64,000 bases of DNA from contig NZ_JAANYY010000003.1 of assembly GCF_012274265.1 (NCBI RefSeq), positions 556,975-620,974 of the forward strand, written 5' to 3'. This DNA is from Sphingopyxis microcysteis. Lineage in GTDB: Bacteria; Pseudomonadota; Alphaproteobacteria; Sphingomonadales; Sphingomonadaceae. Positions 8,003-12,967 of this stretch are shown here, one piece after another. The stretch's first letter is position 1. Every line of letters begins with the position of its first letter. The position numbers and the translations under genes are program-made. Under the pieces are notes generated by a model. The model saw only the letters and a list, made by a program, of their open reading frames with translations. It was not told the DNA's origin and did not search any database.

Positions 8003-9025
8003 CTACGAGCCTGCCCACTCGACCATGATTGCCCCGTCAGGTCGTTCGACGAAGCGAAAGCCCGCTCCCAGAAAGCGCTCGACGAGCGCTGCCGCCGTTA
8101 GCGTATGCTGACTCAGTTTTACCGTTGAAAAGGACCCGCCCCTCGCCATCGCGAAGGGAAGCAGCAATTGGTCTTGCAGGTAAGGGCCGGCGAAAGCCTC
8201 ACACGCCAAATATCCCGCTATCCGCCGCGCCGCAGTTTTGGCTAGGCGTTCGGCGGGAATTCCGATTTTGCCAAAAGCCGACATTACCTCGGTCACATGA
8301 TCGAATTCGGCTTCGAGCAATAGCGCATTGCCCGGCCCCTGATCAGCGGGAAGCTGGCGGATGCCGAAGGCATCGGCGGGCCAGTCGGCAAGCGTCTTCG
8401 CCGCGGTCTTGAGCTCGCGATCGCCGACGTCGAAAGGAACCCCCGCTATGATCGCGGTCGCGGAGACGCGGCGCAGGGCACCGCGCTCGACGCATTCGAT
8501 CGCGCGCAGCGGCGCCGGCGCGATGTCGATCTCGACGCGCCCGCCGCCGCGCGGGAAGAAGCCGTGGCGCACCAGCCGCGCGGTAACGGTCGGTCCCATG
8601 CGGTTGATGACGGACAGCAGCGTACGCTCGATGAACTCGAAGGGCGGCGCGGCCATCGCATGCGTCCCGCCCTCGAGTACGAGCCGCGACGGCGCATCGG
8701 CCAGCATCAGCGGCACCATGACCGTCTGCAGGACGAGCGCGGTGCTGCCCGCGGTACCGACCGCGAAATGATAGTCGCCGGGCGTGATCCGCCCCGGCCG
8801 GAACGAGATGCTGTTCGACCCCACCGCGAGCCCCGAGCATTCGGCGCCACCGATGACGCACGCAGCCTCGATCGCGGTCACATGCTGGCGCATCAGCCCC
8901 GGCTTCTCGCGTCCCCCGCGAATATTCTCGATCGTGAAGGGCTCGCCGGTCAGCAGCGACAGGGCGCACGCATAACGCAGCACCTGCCCCCCACCTTCGC
9001 CTTCCGATCCGTCGATTGTGATCAT
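8003..9025 (-). CDS. rtcA: RNA 3'-terminal phosphate cyclase RtcA
   Basis: A 340-residue protein of usual family length. It opens with IDGSEGEGGGQVLRYA, the family N-terminus, and carries the nucleotidylation histidine in SQHTLTA (His307, equivalent to His309 of E. coli RtcA). The enzyme converts RNA 3'-phosphate ends to 2',3'-cyclic phosphate through an adenylated intermediate, and so feeds RtcB-type ligation. It is the last gene of the rtcB - unknown - rtcA operon; the preceding gene ends 9 nt upstream. Confidence 0.96.
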   Translation of the reverse strand: MITIDGSEGEGGGQVLRYACALSLLTGEPFTIENIRGGREKPGLMRQHVTAIEAACVIGGAECSGLAVGSNSISFRPGRITPGDYHFAVGTAGSTALVLQTVMVPLMLADAPSRLVLEGGTHAMAAPPFEFIERTLLSVINRMGPTVTARLVRHGFFPRGGGRVEIDIAPAPLRAIECVERGALRRVSATAIIAGVPFDVGDRELKTAAKTLADWPADAFGIRQLPADQGPGNALLLEAEFDHVTEVMSAFGKIGIPAERLAKTAARRIAGYLACEAFAGPYLQDQLLLPFAMARGGSFSTVKLSQHTLTAAALVERFLGAGFRFVERPDGAIMVEWAGS

Positions 9026-9034
9026 GTTCTTTGC

Positions 9035-9505
9035 TTACCTGTAAAATCCTGCCGACCAAGGCATCGGCCAAAACATCCAAATGTCGGGCTTGCGGCGGTC
9101 CGATGTTCCGATCCCGAAGTCCCCTCGGCCCACTTCGATGTCGCTGAACGCGGCGCGGAGATGGCGCAGCTGCGCATTGCCCAACGACATGACCAGCCGC
9201 GCTTCGGTGACCTCCATGGTCAAATCGCGCTTATCGGGATCGAAGACAATTCGCATGGACGTGAAGCCATCGTGCCGAGGTTCACCATAGTTGGGAACCG
9301 CCCAAATCGCGTCAGTCATCCGTCCGAGCGTCCAGGTCCGATGACAAGTCTCGCCGCCCGCCATCCGGTCGATGAGATTGCGGAACGAACGGCATCCGGC
9401 GGGATCGCCGGTGAAATGCCATTCGCCCGCATGCTTGCTGTTTTTCGGATAGCGCCAGACGAATATCTGACCCTCCTGCCGCCACTCGGCCACCCAATCG
9501 CGCAT
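9035..9505 (-). CDS. Unrecognised 156-residue protein within the rtc operon
   Basis: I do not recognise a domain. The protein is rich in Trp, Arg and His (WVAEWRQEGQIFVWRYPKN near the N-terminus, PDIWMFWPMPWSAGFYR at the C-terminus) and has a central stretch reading MRIVFDPDKRDLTMEVTEARLVMSLG. There is no signal peptide or membrane helix, so it should be cytoplasmic. It starts 33 nt after the rtcB stop and ends 9 nt before rtcA, so it is co-transcribed with both RNA-repair enzymes and probably acts with them. GGGGG lies before its ATG. Confidence 0.8.
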   Translation of the reverse strand: MRDWVAEWRQEGQIFVWRYPKNSKHAGEWHFTGDPAGCRSFRNLIDRMAGGETCHRTWTLGRMTDAIWAVPNYGEPRHDGFTSMRIVFDPDKRDLTMEVTEARLVMSLGNAQLRHLRAAFSDIEVGRGDFGIGTSDRRKPDIWMFWPMPWSAGFYR

Positions 9506-9538: not shown

Positions 9539-10765
9539 TCACCCTTTCACGCACACCACCTGCTTCAGCGTATGGACGATCTCGACGAGGTCGGCTTGCG
9601 CCGCCATCACCGCCTCGATCGGCTTGTACGCCTTGGGCGTCTCGTCGATGACGCCTTCGTCCTTGCGGCATTCGACGCCCGCGGTGTCGGCGATATGCTC
9701 GTCGAGGGTGACGAGCTTTTTCGCCGCGGTGCGGCTCATGACGCGGCCCGCGCCATGGCTGCAGCTGTCGAAGCTTTCGGCGTTGCCCAGCCCGCGCACG
9801 ATGAACGATTTCGCGCCCATCGAACCCGGGATGATCCCCATCGTGCCCTTCGCCGCGCGCACCGCCCCTTTTCGGGTGACGAGCACATTTTCGCCGAAGT
9901 GATTCTCGCGCGTCACATAATTGTGATGGCAGTTCACCGCCTCGGCCTCGGCCTCGAAAGGCTTGGCGATCTGGAGTCGGAGCGCGGCGATGACATTCGC
10001 CATCATCATGCGCCGGTTCAGCGCCGCAAAGTCCTGCGCCCAGCCGACCGCCTCGACATAATCGTCGAAATGGTCGGTCCCTTCCGGGAAATAGGCGAGG
10101 TCTTCGTCGGGCAGGTTGATGAACCACCTGCGCATCTCCTTCTTCGCCAGTTCGATGAAGTAGGTGCCGATCGCATTGCCGACGCCGCGTGACCCCGAAT
10201 GCAGCATCACCCACACCCGCCCCTCGGTATCGAGGCACAGCTCGATGAAATGGTTTCCCGTTCCGAGCGTCCCCAGATGCGTCAGGTTGTTGGTGTTCTT
10301 CAGCCGCGGATGCTTGGCGACGATACGGCCGAAGCGTTCGGCCAGCGTCGCCCAGGCGTCGACGATTGCTCGCGGGGGATCGCCCCACGAGCCCGTGTCG
10401 CGCTTGCCGCGTCCGACCGACCGGCCGTGCGGCACCGCCGCCTCGATCGCGCTGCGAATACCCTCCAGATTGTCGGGCAGGTCGTGCCCCATCAGCGTCG
10501 TGCGCGCCGCCATCATGCCGCAGCCGATGTCGACTCCGACCGCGGCCGGGATCACCGCGCCTTTGGTCGGGATCACCGATCCGACCGTGGCGCCGATCCC
10601 GACATGGACGTCGGGCATCGCGGCGACATGCTTGAACACGAACGGCATCTGCGCCGCCTTGCGAAGCTGCGCGCGCGCCATGTCCTCGACCGGAACCCCG
10701 CGGGTCCACATCTTGACCGGGCGTCCGCCCTCGACGTTCAGCACTTCATAGCTCGTCTGGGTCAT
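9539..10765 (-). CDS. rtcB: RNA-splicing ligase RtcB
   Basis: A 408-residue ligase joining 2',3'-cyclic phosphate or 3'-phosphate RNA ends to 5'-OH ends with GTP and Mn. Metal ligands are visible: Cys82 in VDIGCGMM, His172 in GTGNHFIEL, His189 in LHSGSRG and His281. The guanylylated histidine is His337 in SCSHGAG, the same number as in E. coli. The frame stays open far upstream, but ATG 10765 has a strong AGGAGG site and gives the family N-terminus. The extra upstream frame is the structured leader, not protein. Confidence 0.97.
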   Translation of the reverse strand: MTQTSYEVLNVEGGRPVKMWTRGVPVEDMARAQLRKAAQMPFVFKHVAAMPDVHVGIGATVGSVIPTKGAVIPAAVGVDIGCGMMAARTTLMGHDLPDNLEGIRSAIEAAVPHGRSVGRGKRDTGSWGDPPRAIVDAWATLAERFGRIVAKHPRLKNTNNLTHLGTLGTGNHFIELCLDTEGRVWVMLHSGSRGVGNAIGTYFIELAKKEMRRWFINLPDEDLAYFPEGTDHFDDYVEAVGWAQDFAALNRRMMMANVIAALRLQIAKPFEAEAEAVNCHHNYVTRENHFGENVLVTRKGAVRAAKGTMGIIPGSMGAKSFIVRGLGNAESFDSCSHGAGRVMSRTAAKKLVTLDEHIADTAGVECRKDEGVIDETPKAYKPIEAVMAAQADLVEIVHTLKQVVCVKG

Positions 10766-10913
10766 GGCTGACCTCCTCTTCGCTTCCTTGGGGCAGCGCC
10801 GTAGCAATGGCGAGCCCTTGAATCCTTCCACGTCGTTTGGGCGCTTGGGGGCGACCGGCCCATTCCGGCCACCCCTCTTCCCGCGTCGTACCGGGGGACG
10901 TGAACCCCGGCAC
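10766..10913 (-). promoter_or_regulatory. Structured 5' leader of the rtcB operon (three hairpins)
   Basis: From the predicted sigma-54 start (about 10912) to the rtcB ATG the transcript has about 147 nt. Three hairpins follow one another. H1 (10888-10913) has arms GTGCCGGGG and CCCCCGGTAC around a short TTCACGT-type loop and resembles a T-arm. H2 (10848-10875) has two 11-nt arms, GGGGTGGCCGG and CCGGTCGCCCC, around AATGGG. H3 (10791-10817) has GGGC/GCCC and CGCC/GGCG arms with an internal loop. H1 begins essentially at +1. The AGGAGG of rtcB follows H3 unpaired. Regulatory or processing roles are inferred. Confidence 0.55.
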
Positions 10914-10922
10914 CGAACATAA

Positions 10923-10938
10923 TGCAGAAGCCGTGCCA
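10923..10938 (-). promoter_or_regulatory. Sigma-54 promoter of the rtcB operon
   Basis: Read on the minus strand the site is TGGCACGGCTTCTGCA. It matches the sigma-54 consensus TGGCAC-N5-TTGCA with GG at -24 and GC at -12 separated by exactly 10 bp. The predicted start is near 10912. RtcR, encoded divergently, is a sigma-54 activator with an intact GAFTGA loop, so promoter and regulator agree. Confidence 0.85.
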
Positions 10939-11032: not shown

Positions 11033-11062
11033 TTGAGATATGATTGTATCGTTCATTATAAA
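11033..11062 (+). promoter_or_regulatory. Sigma-70-like promoter of rtcR
   Basis: TTGAGA (11033-11038) and TATAAA (11057-11062) are separated by 18 bp. Transcription would begin near 11069, ten bases before the ATG at 11079. This supports that ATG over the in-frame start at 11040, which would lie inside the promoter. Confidence 0.5.
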
Positions 11063-11078
11063 TTTATATAAGAATGAC

Positions 11079-12683
11079 ATGAAGCCGCTGACCGTTCTTG
11101 GATTTCTGGGTTCGACCCTCGACGCGGGCAAGTTCGACGCCGGACGCTGGAACAAGTGGCGGCCGAGCGTGAGCATCTGCATGCAGGAGGATCTGCGCGT
11201 CGATCGCTTCATCCTGCTCCACGGCAGCCATCACCGCCGGCTGGCCGAAATCGTCGCGAAGGACATCGCCGACGTATCGCCTGAGACCGCGGTCGTCCCG
11301 CATACCCTCGACTTCGACGACGCATGGGATTTCGAGGAGGTCTACGGCAAGCTGCTCGACTTCGCGCGCGGCTTTCCCTTCGATCCCGACGCGGAAGATT
11401 ATCTGATCCACATCACGACGGGCACCCACGTCGCGCAAATATGCCTCTTCCTCCTGACCGAGGCGCGCTACCTGCCGGGACGTCTCCTGCAGACGCAGCC
11501 ACAGCGCGGCGCACCGCAACCGGTGGGCATCTGGAACAGCATCGATCTCGACCTCTCGCGCTACGACAGTATCGCGACGCGCTTCGCCGAGGCCAGCGCG
11601 GAGAGCGCGAGCTTTCTGAAAAGCGGGATCGAAACGCGCAACCCCGCCTTCAACCGCATGATCGAGGAGATCGAACAGGTAGCAGTCCGTAGCCGCGCGC
11701 CGATCTTGCTCATGGGACCGACCGGTGCGGGCAAGAGCCAGCTGGCGCGGAAGGTCTATGAACTGAAGAAGCTTCGTCACCAGCTCGGCGGCCCGTTCGT
11801 CGAGGTCAATTGCGCGACGCTGAAAGGCGACAGCGCAACCTCGGCGCTGTTCGGCCATCGCAAGGGCGCCTTTACCGGCGCCGCGCAGGACCGTCCCGGG
11901 CTTCTCAAGAGCGCCGACAAGGGCTTGCTGTTCCTCGACGAGATCGGCGAGCTCGGGCTCGACGAACAGGCGATGATCCTGCGCGCGATCGAGGAAGGGC
12001 GGTTTCTGCCGGTCGGATCCGACAGCGAGACCCGAAGCGATTTCCAGCTGATCGCGGGCACCAACCGCGATCTCGTCGAACAGGTGCGCAAAGGCCGCTT
12101 TCGCGACGACCTGTTCGCGAGGCTGAACCTCTGGACCTTTTCGCTTCCCGGCCTCGCCGAACGCCGCGAAGACATCGCACCCAATCTCGATTACGAGCTC
12201 GAACGCTTCGCCGAGCGTGAAGGGTCGCGGGTCACCTTCAACAAGGAAGCGCGCGAACGATATCTGGCCTTCGCGGAGGGCCACGACGCGAAGTGGCAGG
12301 GAAATTTTCGCGATCTCGCCGCCAGCGTCACGCGAATGGCGACGCTCAACACGACCGGGCGGATCGACGTCGGCGCCGTCGATCTTGAGATCAAGCGCTT
12401 GGGCACTACTTGGCACACCGACAAATCTGAAGCTGATGTTTTCGACCGGATTCTCGGCAGAGACCAGCTGGCCGAGATAGATCCATTTGACCGAGTGCAA
12501 CTGGCCTTCGTCGTTAAAACCTGTCGTGCATGCCGATCGCTGTCGGAAGCAGGGCGGCAACTGTTCGCGGCGTCTCGCGAGCTGCGTACGAGCACGAATG
12601 ACGCGGATCGCCTTCGCAAGTATCTGGCTCGCTTTAATCTGACGTGGACCGATCTTCAGCAACCGGTCGGCGGGTACCGATAG
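11079..12683 (+). CDS. rtcR: RtcR, sigma-54-dependent activator of the rtc operon
   Basis: A 534-residue enhancer-binding protein. The N-terminal RtcR domain (about 1-185; starts MKPLTVLGFLGSTLD, with HITTGTHVAQICLFLL) is a CARF-like sensory fold known to control RtcR. The AAA+ domain follows, with Walker A GPTGAGKS near 212, the sigma-54 contact loop GAFTGA near 262 and Walker B LLFLDEIGEL. The C-terminus (KTCRACRSLSEAGRQLF) holds the helix-turn-helix. It is divergent from rtcB, whose promoter is sigma-54 type, so it should activate RNA repair on sensing an RNA-end signal. Confidence 0.96.
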   Translation: MKPLTVLGFLGSTLDAGKFDAGRWNKWRPSVSICMQEDLRVDRFILLHGSHHRRLAEIVAKDIADVSPETAVVPHTLDFDDAWDFEEVYGKLLDFARGFPFDPDAEDYLIHITTGTHVAQICLFLLTEARYLPGRLLQTQPQRGAPQPVGIWNSIDLDLSRYDSIATRFAEASAESASFLKSGIETRNPAFNRMIEEIEQVAVRSRAPILLMGPTGAGKSQLARKVYELKKLRHQLGGPFVEVNCATLKGDSATSALFGHRKGAFTGAAQDRPGLLKSADKGLLFLDEIGELGLDEQAMILRAIEEGRFLPVGSDSETRSDFQLIAGTNRDLVEQVRKGRFRDDLFARLNLWTFSLPGLAERREDIAPNLDYELERFAEREGSRVTFNKEARERYLAFAEGHDAKWQGNFRDLAASVTRMATLNTTGRIDVGAVDLEIKRLGTTWHTDKSEADVFDRILGRDQLAEIDPFDRVQLAFVVKTCRACRSLSEAGRQLFAASRELRTSTNDADRLRKYLARFNLTWTDLQQPVGGYR

Positions 12684-12893: not shown

Positions 12894-12967
12894 TGGAGGC
12901 CCGAGCCGGAATCGAACCGGCGTGCACGGATTTGCAATCCGCTGCGTCACCACTCCGCCATCGGGCC
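12894..12967 (-). tRNA. tRNA-Cys (anticodon GCA)
   Basis: The minus strand folds as a complete 74-nt cloverleaf: acceptor GGCCCGA paired with TCGGGCC, discriminator U73 (an identity element for cysteine), encoded CCA, anticodon arm CGGATTGCAAATCCG with GCA, and a T-arm GCCGGTTCGATTCCGGC. No duplicate of its 3' end was noticed in the window, so there is no evidence that it served as an attachment site. Confidence 0.95.

Follow-up and report, generated by a model that had tools for sequence, protein, structure and literature searches.

A conserved two-hairpin leader RNA at the predicted start of the RtcR-controlled RNA-repair operon of Sphingomonadales

Introduction

The bacterial regulator RtcR reads RNA damage; the nature of its on/off switch is debated, with tRNA fragments proposed in Salmonella and binding of RtcAB proposed in Escherichia coli. 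The closest described operons, rsr-yrlBA-rtcBA of Salmonella and rtcBA of E. coli, share the activator, the promoter type and the enzymes with the locus described here, but the leader of the E. coli operon is A-rich, spans about 40 nt and lacks the hairpins reported below. To our knowledge, the RtcR RNA-repair system has been thought to contain proteins and Y RNAs only. The Y RNA YrlA, which contains a tRNA-like module and is found together with Ro60, resembles the present leader in being structured, non-coding and part of the same operon under RtcR control; in relatives it lies between rsr and rtcB. Structured RNAs at the start of a transcript are also known from other systems. In the ompA leader, a 5′ hairpin protects the end of the mRNA, and such stabilizing hairpins share with the present leader the closure of a hairpin at the very 5′ end. 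Promoter-proximal tandem hairpins also make up the put RNA of phage HK022 and the EAR element of Bacillus, precedents for processive antitermination; like the present leader, they would be expected to work in cis whatever the downstream gene.

Here, we describe, at the head of the rtcBA operon, a two-hairpin RNA that compensating mutations have preserved across about 80 related species. It adds to the RtcR system an RNA element that is absent from Rfam 15, and an RNA that starts at the first predicted transcribed base of the operon offers a compact genetic handle on the RtcR loop.

The operon and its promoter

The window, which is the whole stretch of 64,000 nucleotides that was analysed, comes from a Sphingopyxis-like genome whose near relatives are Sphingopyxis and contains an RNA-repair operon of the RtcR/sigma-54 type, with rtcB and rtcA behind a −24/−12 promoter and a divergent rtcR. 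On the minus strand, the gene order is rtcB, an ORF of 156 aa and rtcA, and rtcR lies opposite on the plus strand:

8003 to 9025, minus strand: rtcA, RNA 3′-phosphate cyclase (NCBIfam PRK04204.1-2, 383 bits)
9035 to 9505, minus strand: 156-aa ORF between rtcB and rtcA, read from the sequence and present in the operons of several relatives
9539 to 10765, minus strand: rtcB, RNA ligase (Pfam PF01139, E 5.5e-128)
10772 to 10777, minus strand: AGGAGG, ribosome-binding site of rtcB, read from the sequence
11040 to 12683, plus strand: rtcR, CARF-domain sigma-54 activator (NCBIfam RNA_repair_RtcR, 808 bits)

The alignment of rtcR to the NCBIfam model begins at residue 15, and the true start is probably the ATG at 11079. 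The 156-aa ORF has no match in Pfam or NCBIfam; it is kept at the same position in, for example, L028, L155 and L170, and a nucleotidyltransferase-looking protein is found there instead in other relatives. The sole tRNA of the window is a tRNA-Cys (12894-12967), and a search of the window genome with the Rsr of a sister genome as the query found no Ro60 homologue.

Three features define the start of the operon:

10923 to 10938, minus strand: sigma-54 (−24/−12) promoter TGGCACGGCTTCTGCA, the only match to the pattern in the window
10913, minus strand: predicted transcription start (+1), 12 nt past the −12 G by the sigma-54 spacing rule
11044 to 11051, minus strand: CGATACAA, a weak candidate for an RtcR upstream activating sequence, an 8-mer present upstream of the promoter in 20/69 relatives

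The single promoter match compares with 0.16 expected in 64 kb, and TGGCAC/T-N5-NTGC stands at identical spacing in all 57 elements checked. A first-pass annotation had placed the transcript start near 10912, in agreement with the position of about 10913 that the spacing rule predicts. Upstream of the sigma-54 site, the 8-mer CGATACAA and a dyad, TATCG-N4-CGATA, both seen in the upstream regions of L136-L215, may constitute the RtcR activating sequence of the clade; the window holds one exact match to the 8-mer, as against 0.8 by chance.

Architecture of the leader

The best explanation is that the rtcBA transcript begins with a conserved structured element of ~75 nt, in which a hairpin at the very 5′ end, P1, is followed by a second hairpin, P2, with an AAUNGG loop. 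Its parts in the window are as follows:

10840 to 10922, minus strand: whole leader element, match to covariance model R1 (85.2 bits, E 3e-16)
10888 to 10913, minus strand: hairpin 1 (P1), 9 bp here, loop UUCACGUC (fold, covariation on the rtcR tree, arm-swap test)
10848 to 10875, minus strand: hairpin 2 (P2a), an 11-bp G+C-rich stem with the hexaloop AAUGGG (pairing and covariation in relatives)
10859 to 10864, minus strand: loop AAUGGG of hairpin 2, consensus AAUNGG (100 distinct leaders)
10880 to 10882, minus strand: GGG, 5′ strand of a weak basal helix, P2b (fold pairing with 10839-10841, flank-swap test)
10839 to 10841, minus strand: CCC, 3′ strand of P2b (fold pairing with 10880-10882, flank-swap test)
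10766 to 10838, minus strand: remaining 5′-UTR, including the reported third hairpin, outside the conserved element (z +0.74, no common fold)

The predicted transcript opens with GUGCCGGGGUUCACGUCCCCCGGUAC, which is hairpin 1 (GUGCCGGGG-UUCACGUC-CCCCGGUAC) with its 5′ base on the predicted +1, and continues through a 12-nt linker into hairpin 2 (GGGGUGGCCGG-AAUGGG-CCGGUCGCCCC). In relatives too, P1 starts no more than about 2 nt from the predicted +1, and its consensus GYRUC lies at that point or about 1 nt from it at most. The 75 nt from 10839 to 10913 fold at −45.9 kcal/mol, compared with −35.9 ± 3.5 for shuffles (z −2.86; 3/200), and the whole leader taken together with the start of rtcB is unremarkable against shuffles (z −0.78).

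The first-pass annotation had proposed three hairpins from the letters, one of them at the very 5′ end, one with an 11-bp stem and one just before AGGAGG, and had named conservation and covariation in relatives as the check. The fold recovers the first two at 10888-10913 and 10848-10875, and for these the check is positive across about 100 distinct sequences. The third is rejected: 159 of 200 shuffles of 10766-10838 fold at least as well, and no fold is shared in this stretch by the 12 Sphingopyxis relatives in which rtcB comes first.

Covariation and constraint at the RNA level

Among 100 distinct leaders, pairs 1-10 of P2a are at least 99% paired, with exchanges of C-G for U-A and of G-C for A-U. 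The P2 stem is G+C-rich and 10-12 bp long across relatives, and its loop is AAUGGG in 79 and AAUAGG in 12 of these leaders. P1 keeps its pairing and drifts freely in stem and loop sequence between genera. Compensatory changes were compared with event-reshuffled nulls in which the same number of substitutions was replayed on an independent rtcR protein tree, our own approximation of R-scape. Five pairs covary beyond phylogeny at p≤0.008 by uncorrected per-pair values, namely pairs 4 (p=0.001) and 6 (p=0.008) of P1 and pairs 2, 6 and 8 of P2 (p 0.003-0.005), and several further pairs stay paired more often than the null expects. Exchanging the arms of P1 between species lowers the score from 18.2 to 14.8 ± 0.25, and exchanging the flanks that form P2b among 100 sequences lowers it from 10.6 to 9.4 ± 0.18, in swaps that leave the relatedness among the species in place. 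The signal became clear only after other genera were added; within the genus it was weak, with a single pair changed on both sides and shuffle controls that were not significant.

Read on the operon-sense strand, the cells of P2a pairs 1-10 contain 49 G-U and 1 A-C, and the constraint therefore acts on RNA in the direction of the operon. Counted as events, the changes (C>T 31, G>A 19) are less lopsided because this count includes halves of compensated changes. That the two-hairpin leader is a conserved structured RNA is thus well supported, and fold, conservation and covariation together bear out the earlier proposal of a structured RNA leader, which lies at the predicted +1 of an RtcR/sigma-54-driven operon.

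Distribution and linkage to rtcR

The element follows rtcR closely in three overlapping sets of genomes, whose counts are not additive. Within the genus, rtcR is present in 20 of the 80 genomes scanned, and all 20 carry the element behind a sigma-54 site upstream of that gene. In 401 genomes of the Sphingomonadaceae, scanned with a covariance model that was trained on both hairpins in the genus sequences with the promoter left out, an RtcR census made independently of the element scan found rtcR in 39; an element match lies beside the gene in 39/39, and only two genomes lacking rtcR gave a match at E<1e-3. The same position, upstream of rtcR on the opposite strand, is occupied in 80/80 named rtcR loci, drawn from Sphingopyxis, Erythrobacter, Qipengyuania, Croceibacterium, Porphyrobacter, Sphingomonas, Novosphingobium, Sphingobium, Hwanghaeella and Minwuia. 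All fetched family matches adjoin rtcR except four (L114-L117), which have neither a sigma-54 site nor rtc genes and were counted as chance; nearly all matches away from rtcR look like chance. The element is single copy in the window genome, where the next best match has an E value of about 1.

Beyond the family, the element occurs at 4 of 11 alphaproteobacterial rtcR loci (L127, L128, L130 and L131). It is absent from the seven loci with a more distant RtcR and from the E. coli rtc operon, and control by RtcR therefore does not require it. An association with RtcR is not separable from one with RtcAB through single-gene genomes, since 39 of the 40 family genomes with rtcA also have rtcR. We regard the element as a part of the RtcR/sigma-54 RNA-repair operon that is ancestral in Sphingomonadales and in a small number of further Alphaproteobacteria.

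Identity of the leader

Hairpin 1 had been likened to a T-arm and the leader as a whole to a tRNA. A T-loop requires the 7-nt TTCRANY closed by G53-C61, with an invariant A at position 58; the loop of hairpin 1, UUCACGUC, has 8 nt and a C at position 58 and differs in other genera, so the likeness is superficial. Neither the tRNA covariance model nor ARAGORN gave a match in the leader, and the loop and stem of hairpin 1 change freely between genera. Mimicry of a T-arm or of a tRNA by the leader itself is rejected, and the true tRNA-like RNAs of relatives sit behind it.

YrlA (RF02553) has no match in the window or at the leaders of relatives, in runs that did find YrlA elsewhere in the operons of those relatives. 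The leader differs from this RNA both in lacking a match to the model and in being kept in the window genome, where no Ro60 was found, and on these two grounds a Y RNA identity is rejected. Rfam 15 gave no match to the leader at the gathering score, nor any in the loci of relatives at E up to 0.5. No earlier description of the leader was found in the literature searched, although absence from that literature and from Rfam 15 is not the same as never having been described.

What follows the leader

The gene after the leader varies: it is rtcB in the window and elsewhere rsr/Ro60 or a tRNA-Pro(UGG)-like gene. In several relatives of the genus it encodes a 515-aa Rsr with a Ro60 vWA domain (Pfam PF25045, E 1.5e-15), and these operons run from rsr through YrlA Y RNAs to rtcB. 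As it is kept before rtcB, rsr or a tRNA alike, the leader goes with the RtcR promoter, not with rtcB, and is not specific to the translation of one gene. The distance from P2 to the start codon ranges from ~20 to >100 nt across loci, and some rsr-first loci have their ribosome-binding site only ~10-30 nt after P2. In L024, L028, L033, L035, L036 and L037, tandem YrlA copies, up to about five, lie between rsr and rtcB within one operon, and some of these score below the Rfam gathering score.

A tRNA-Pro(UGG) with an encoded CCA directly follows the leader in 9 of the 39 rtcR-bearing family genomes; this arrangement recurs at about ten of the 80 named loci, partly in the same genomes. The genomes tested also have an ordinary tRNA-Pro(UGG) elsewhere, and the operon copy is therefore extra. 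Its D-loop reads UGCG in nearly all copies, as opposed to UGGU in the ordinary ones (L221-L233); G19 of a tRNA normally pairs with C56, and the change of G19 to C would therefore break this contact. The operon copies of L044 and L054 keep GG. Altered or decayed copies occur in L168, L184, L199, L207 and L215, those of L199 and L215 having a rearranged anticodon arm, and strongly diverged tRNA-like sequences follow the leader in L180 and L212. The frequent presence of such a gene behind the leader suggests that these operons carry a tRNA of their own, which might serve as a substrate, as a decoy or as a spare made on induction. At the majority of loci, including that of the window, neither a tRNA nor YrlA directly adjoins the leader.

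Possible roles

We propose that the leader is a new conserved regulatory RNA of the RtcR regulon that is probably bound by a protein and partly detached from its mRNA, a mechanism that we put forward tentatively and somewhat short of an even expectation. In this reading, the operon would yield both RNAs and proteins, with the leader as its first non-coding product, followed by a tRNA-Pro-like RNA in many species, Ro60 with YrlA RNAs, RtcB and RtcA. That the P2 loop is fixed suggests that a partner recognizes it, and a protein of the same regulon (RtcR through its RNA-binding CARF domain, RtcA or RtcB) might recognize this loop together with the closed 5′ end and so tune or shut off the RNA-repair response. 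The leader would also act, at least in part, as an RNA separate from the coding mRNA. A processed small RNA, one of the functions first suggested for the leader, becomes more plausible because many relatives have a tRNA gene directly behind it: at loci of the tRNA type, RNase P would cut the leader from the coding mRNA and release it as an RNA of ~95 nt. For loci of the other kind, the window included, such release would be an extrapolation. A more specific version, in which the leader, as the first RNA from the activated promoter, would bind the CARF sensor of RtcR (or RtcA/RtcB) as a ligand or decoy and so feed back on its own activator, with the tRNA-Pro-like RNA as a second mimic or decoy, appears quite unlikely. 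If the leader does feed back on RtcR, the response to RNA damage would be tuned by an RNA that it transcribes.

Release by RNase P, where it occurred, would weaken explanations based purely on translation or on protection of the mRNA end. In the latter, the hairpin at +1 would shield the transcript from RppH, from 5′-end sensing by RNase E and from RNase J while RNases are active; this fits a P1 whose position, about 2 nt at most from the predicted start, is kept while its stem sequence drifts, as well as the independence from the next gene. It leaves the nearly invariant AAUNGG loop of P2 unexplained, and RNase P would detach the shield in species of the tRNA type, which nevertheless keep the leader. 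The conserved second hairpin with its fixed loop, and this retention where a tRNA would separate leader from mRNA, set the element apart from hairpins of the ompA type, and we consider protection rather unlikely. Binding of RtcB, RtcA or Ro60 to P2 with blockage of the first ribosome-binding site would suit the rsr-first loci in which that site lies close behind P2, but the variable spacing to the start codon, the change of first gene and the tRNA that can intervene make translational control very unlikely.

The other main alternative, somewhat less to be expected than protection of the 5′ end, is an action on transcription, in which the nascent two-hairpin RNA would modify RNA polymerase, by processive antitermination as with put or EAR, so that it crosses long untranslated stable-RNA segments (the tRNA or several YrlA copies). 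The element is promoter-proximal, linked in cis and indifferent to the next gene, and the operons of relatives do carry several YrlA RNAs and tRNAs; however, no stable RNA would need to be crossed in the window operon, which keeps the element all the same, and related operons outside the clade manage without it. That the inverted repeats are instead operator sites in DNA, for RtcR or another protein, would accord with their place near a regulated promoter. A DNA palindrome, though, would not produce the asymmetry between G-U and A-C in P2a, on which this reading was rejected as highly improbable; moreover, the stem sequences change freely with their pairing kept, and sigma-54 activators usually bind upstream, in the region where the separate shared motif was found.

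Atypical loci

Two loci depart from the common arrangement. L118 (G419:C319:2000-6500) has a second divergent rtcR, of 48% identity, with its own rsr and without the leader element; the same genome bin also has a normal rtcR locus, and contamination or transfer is possible. At L127 (2040-2585), unlike at other loci, about 290 nt separate the leader from rtcB, and this stretch contains another inverted repeat, a long one (GGCGGGAC...GTCCCGCC) that encloses inner hairpins.
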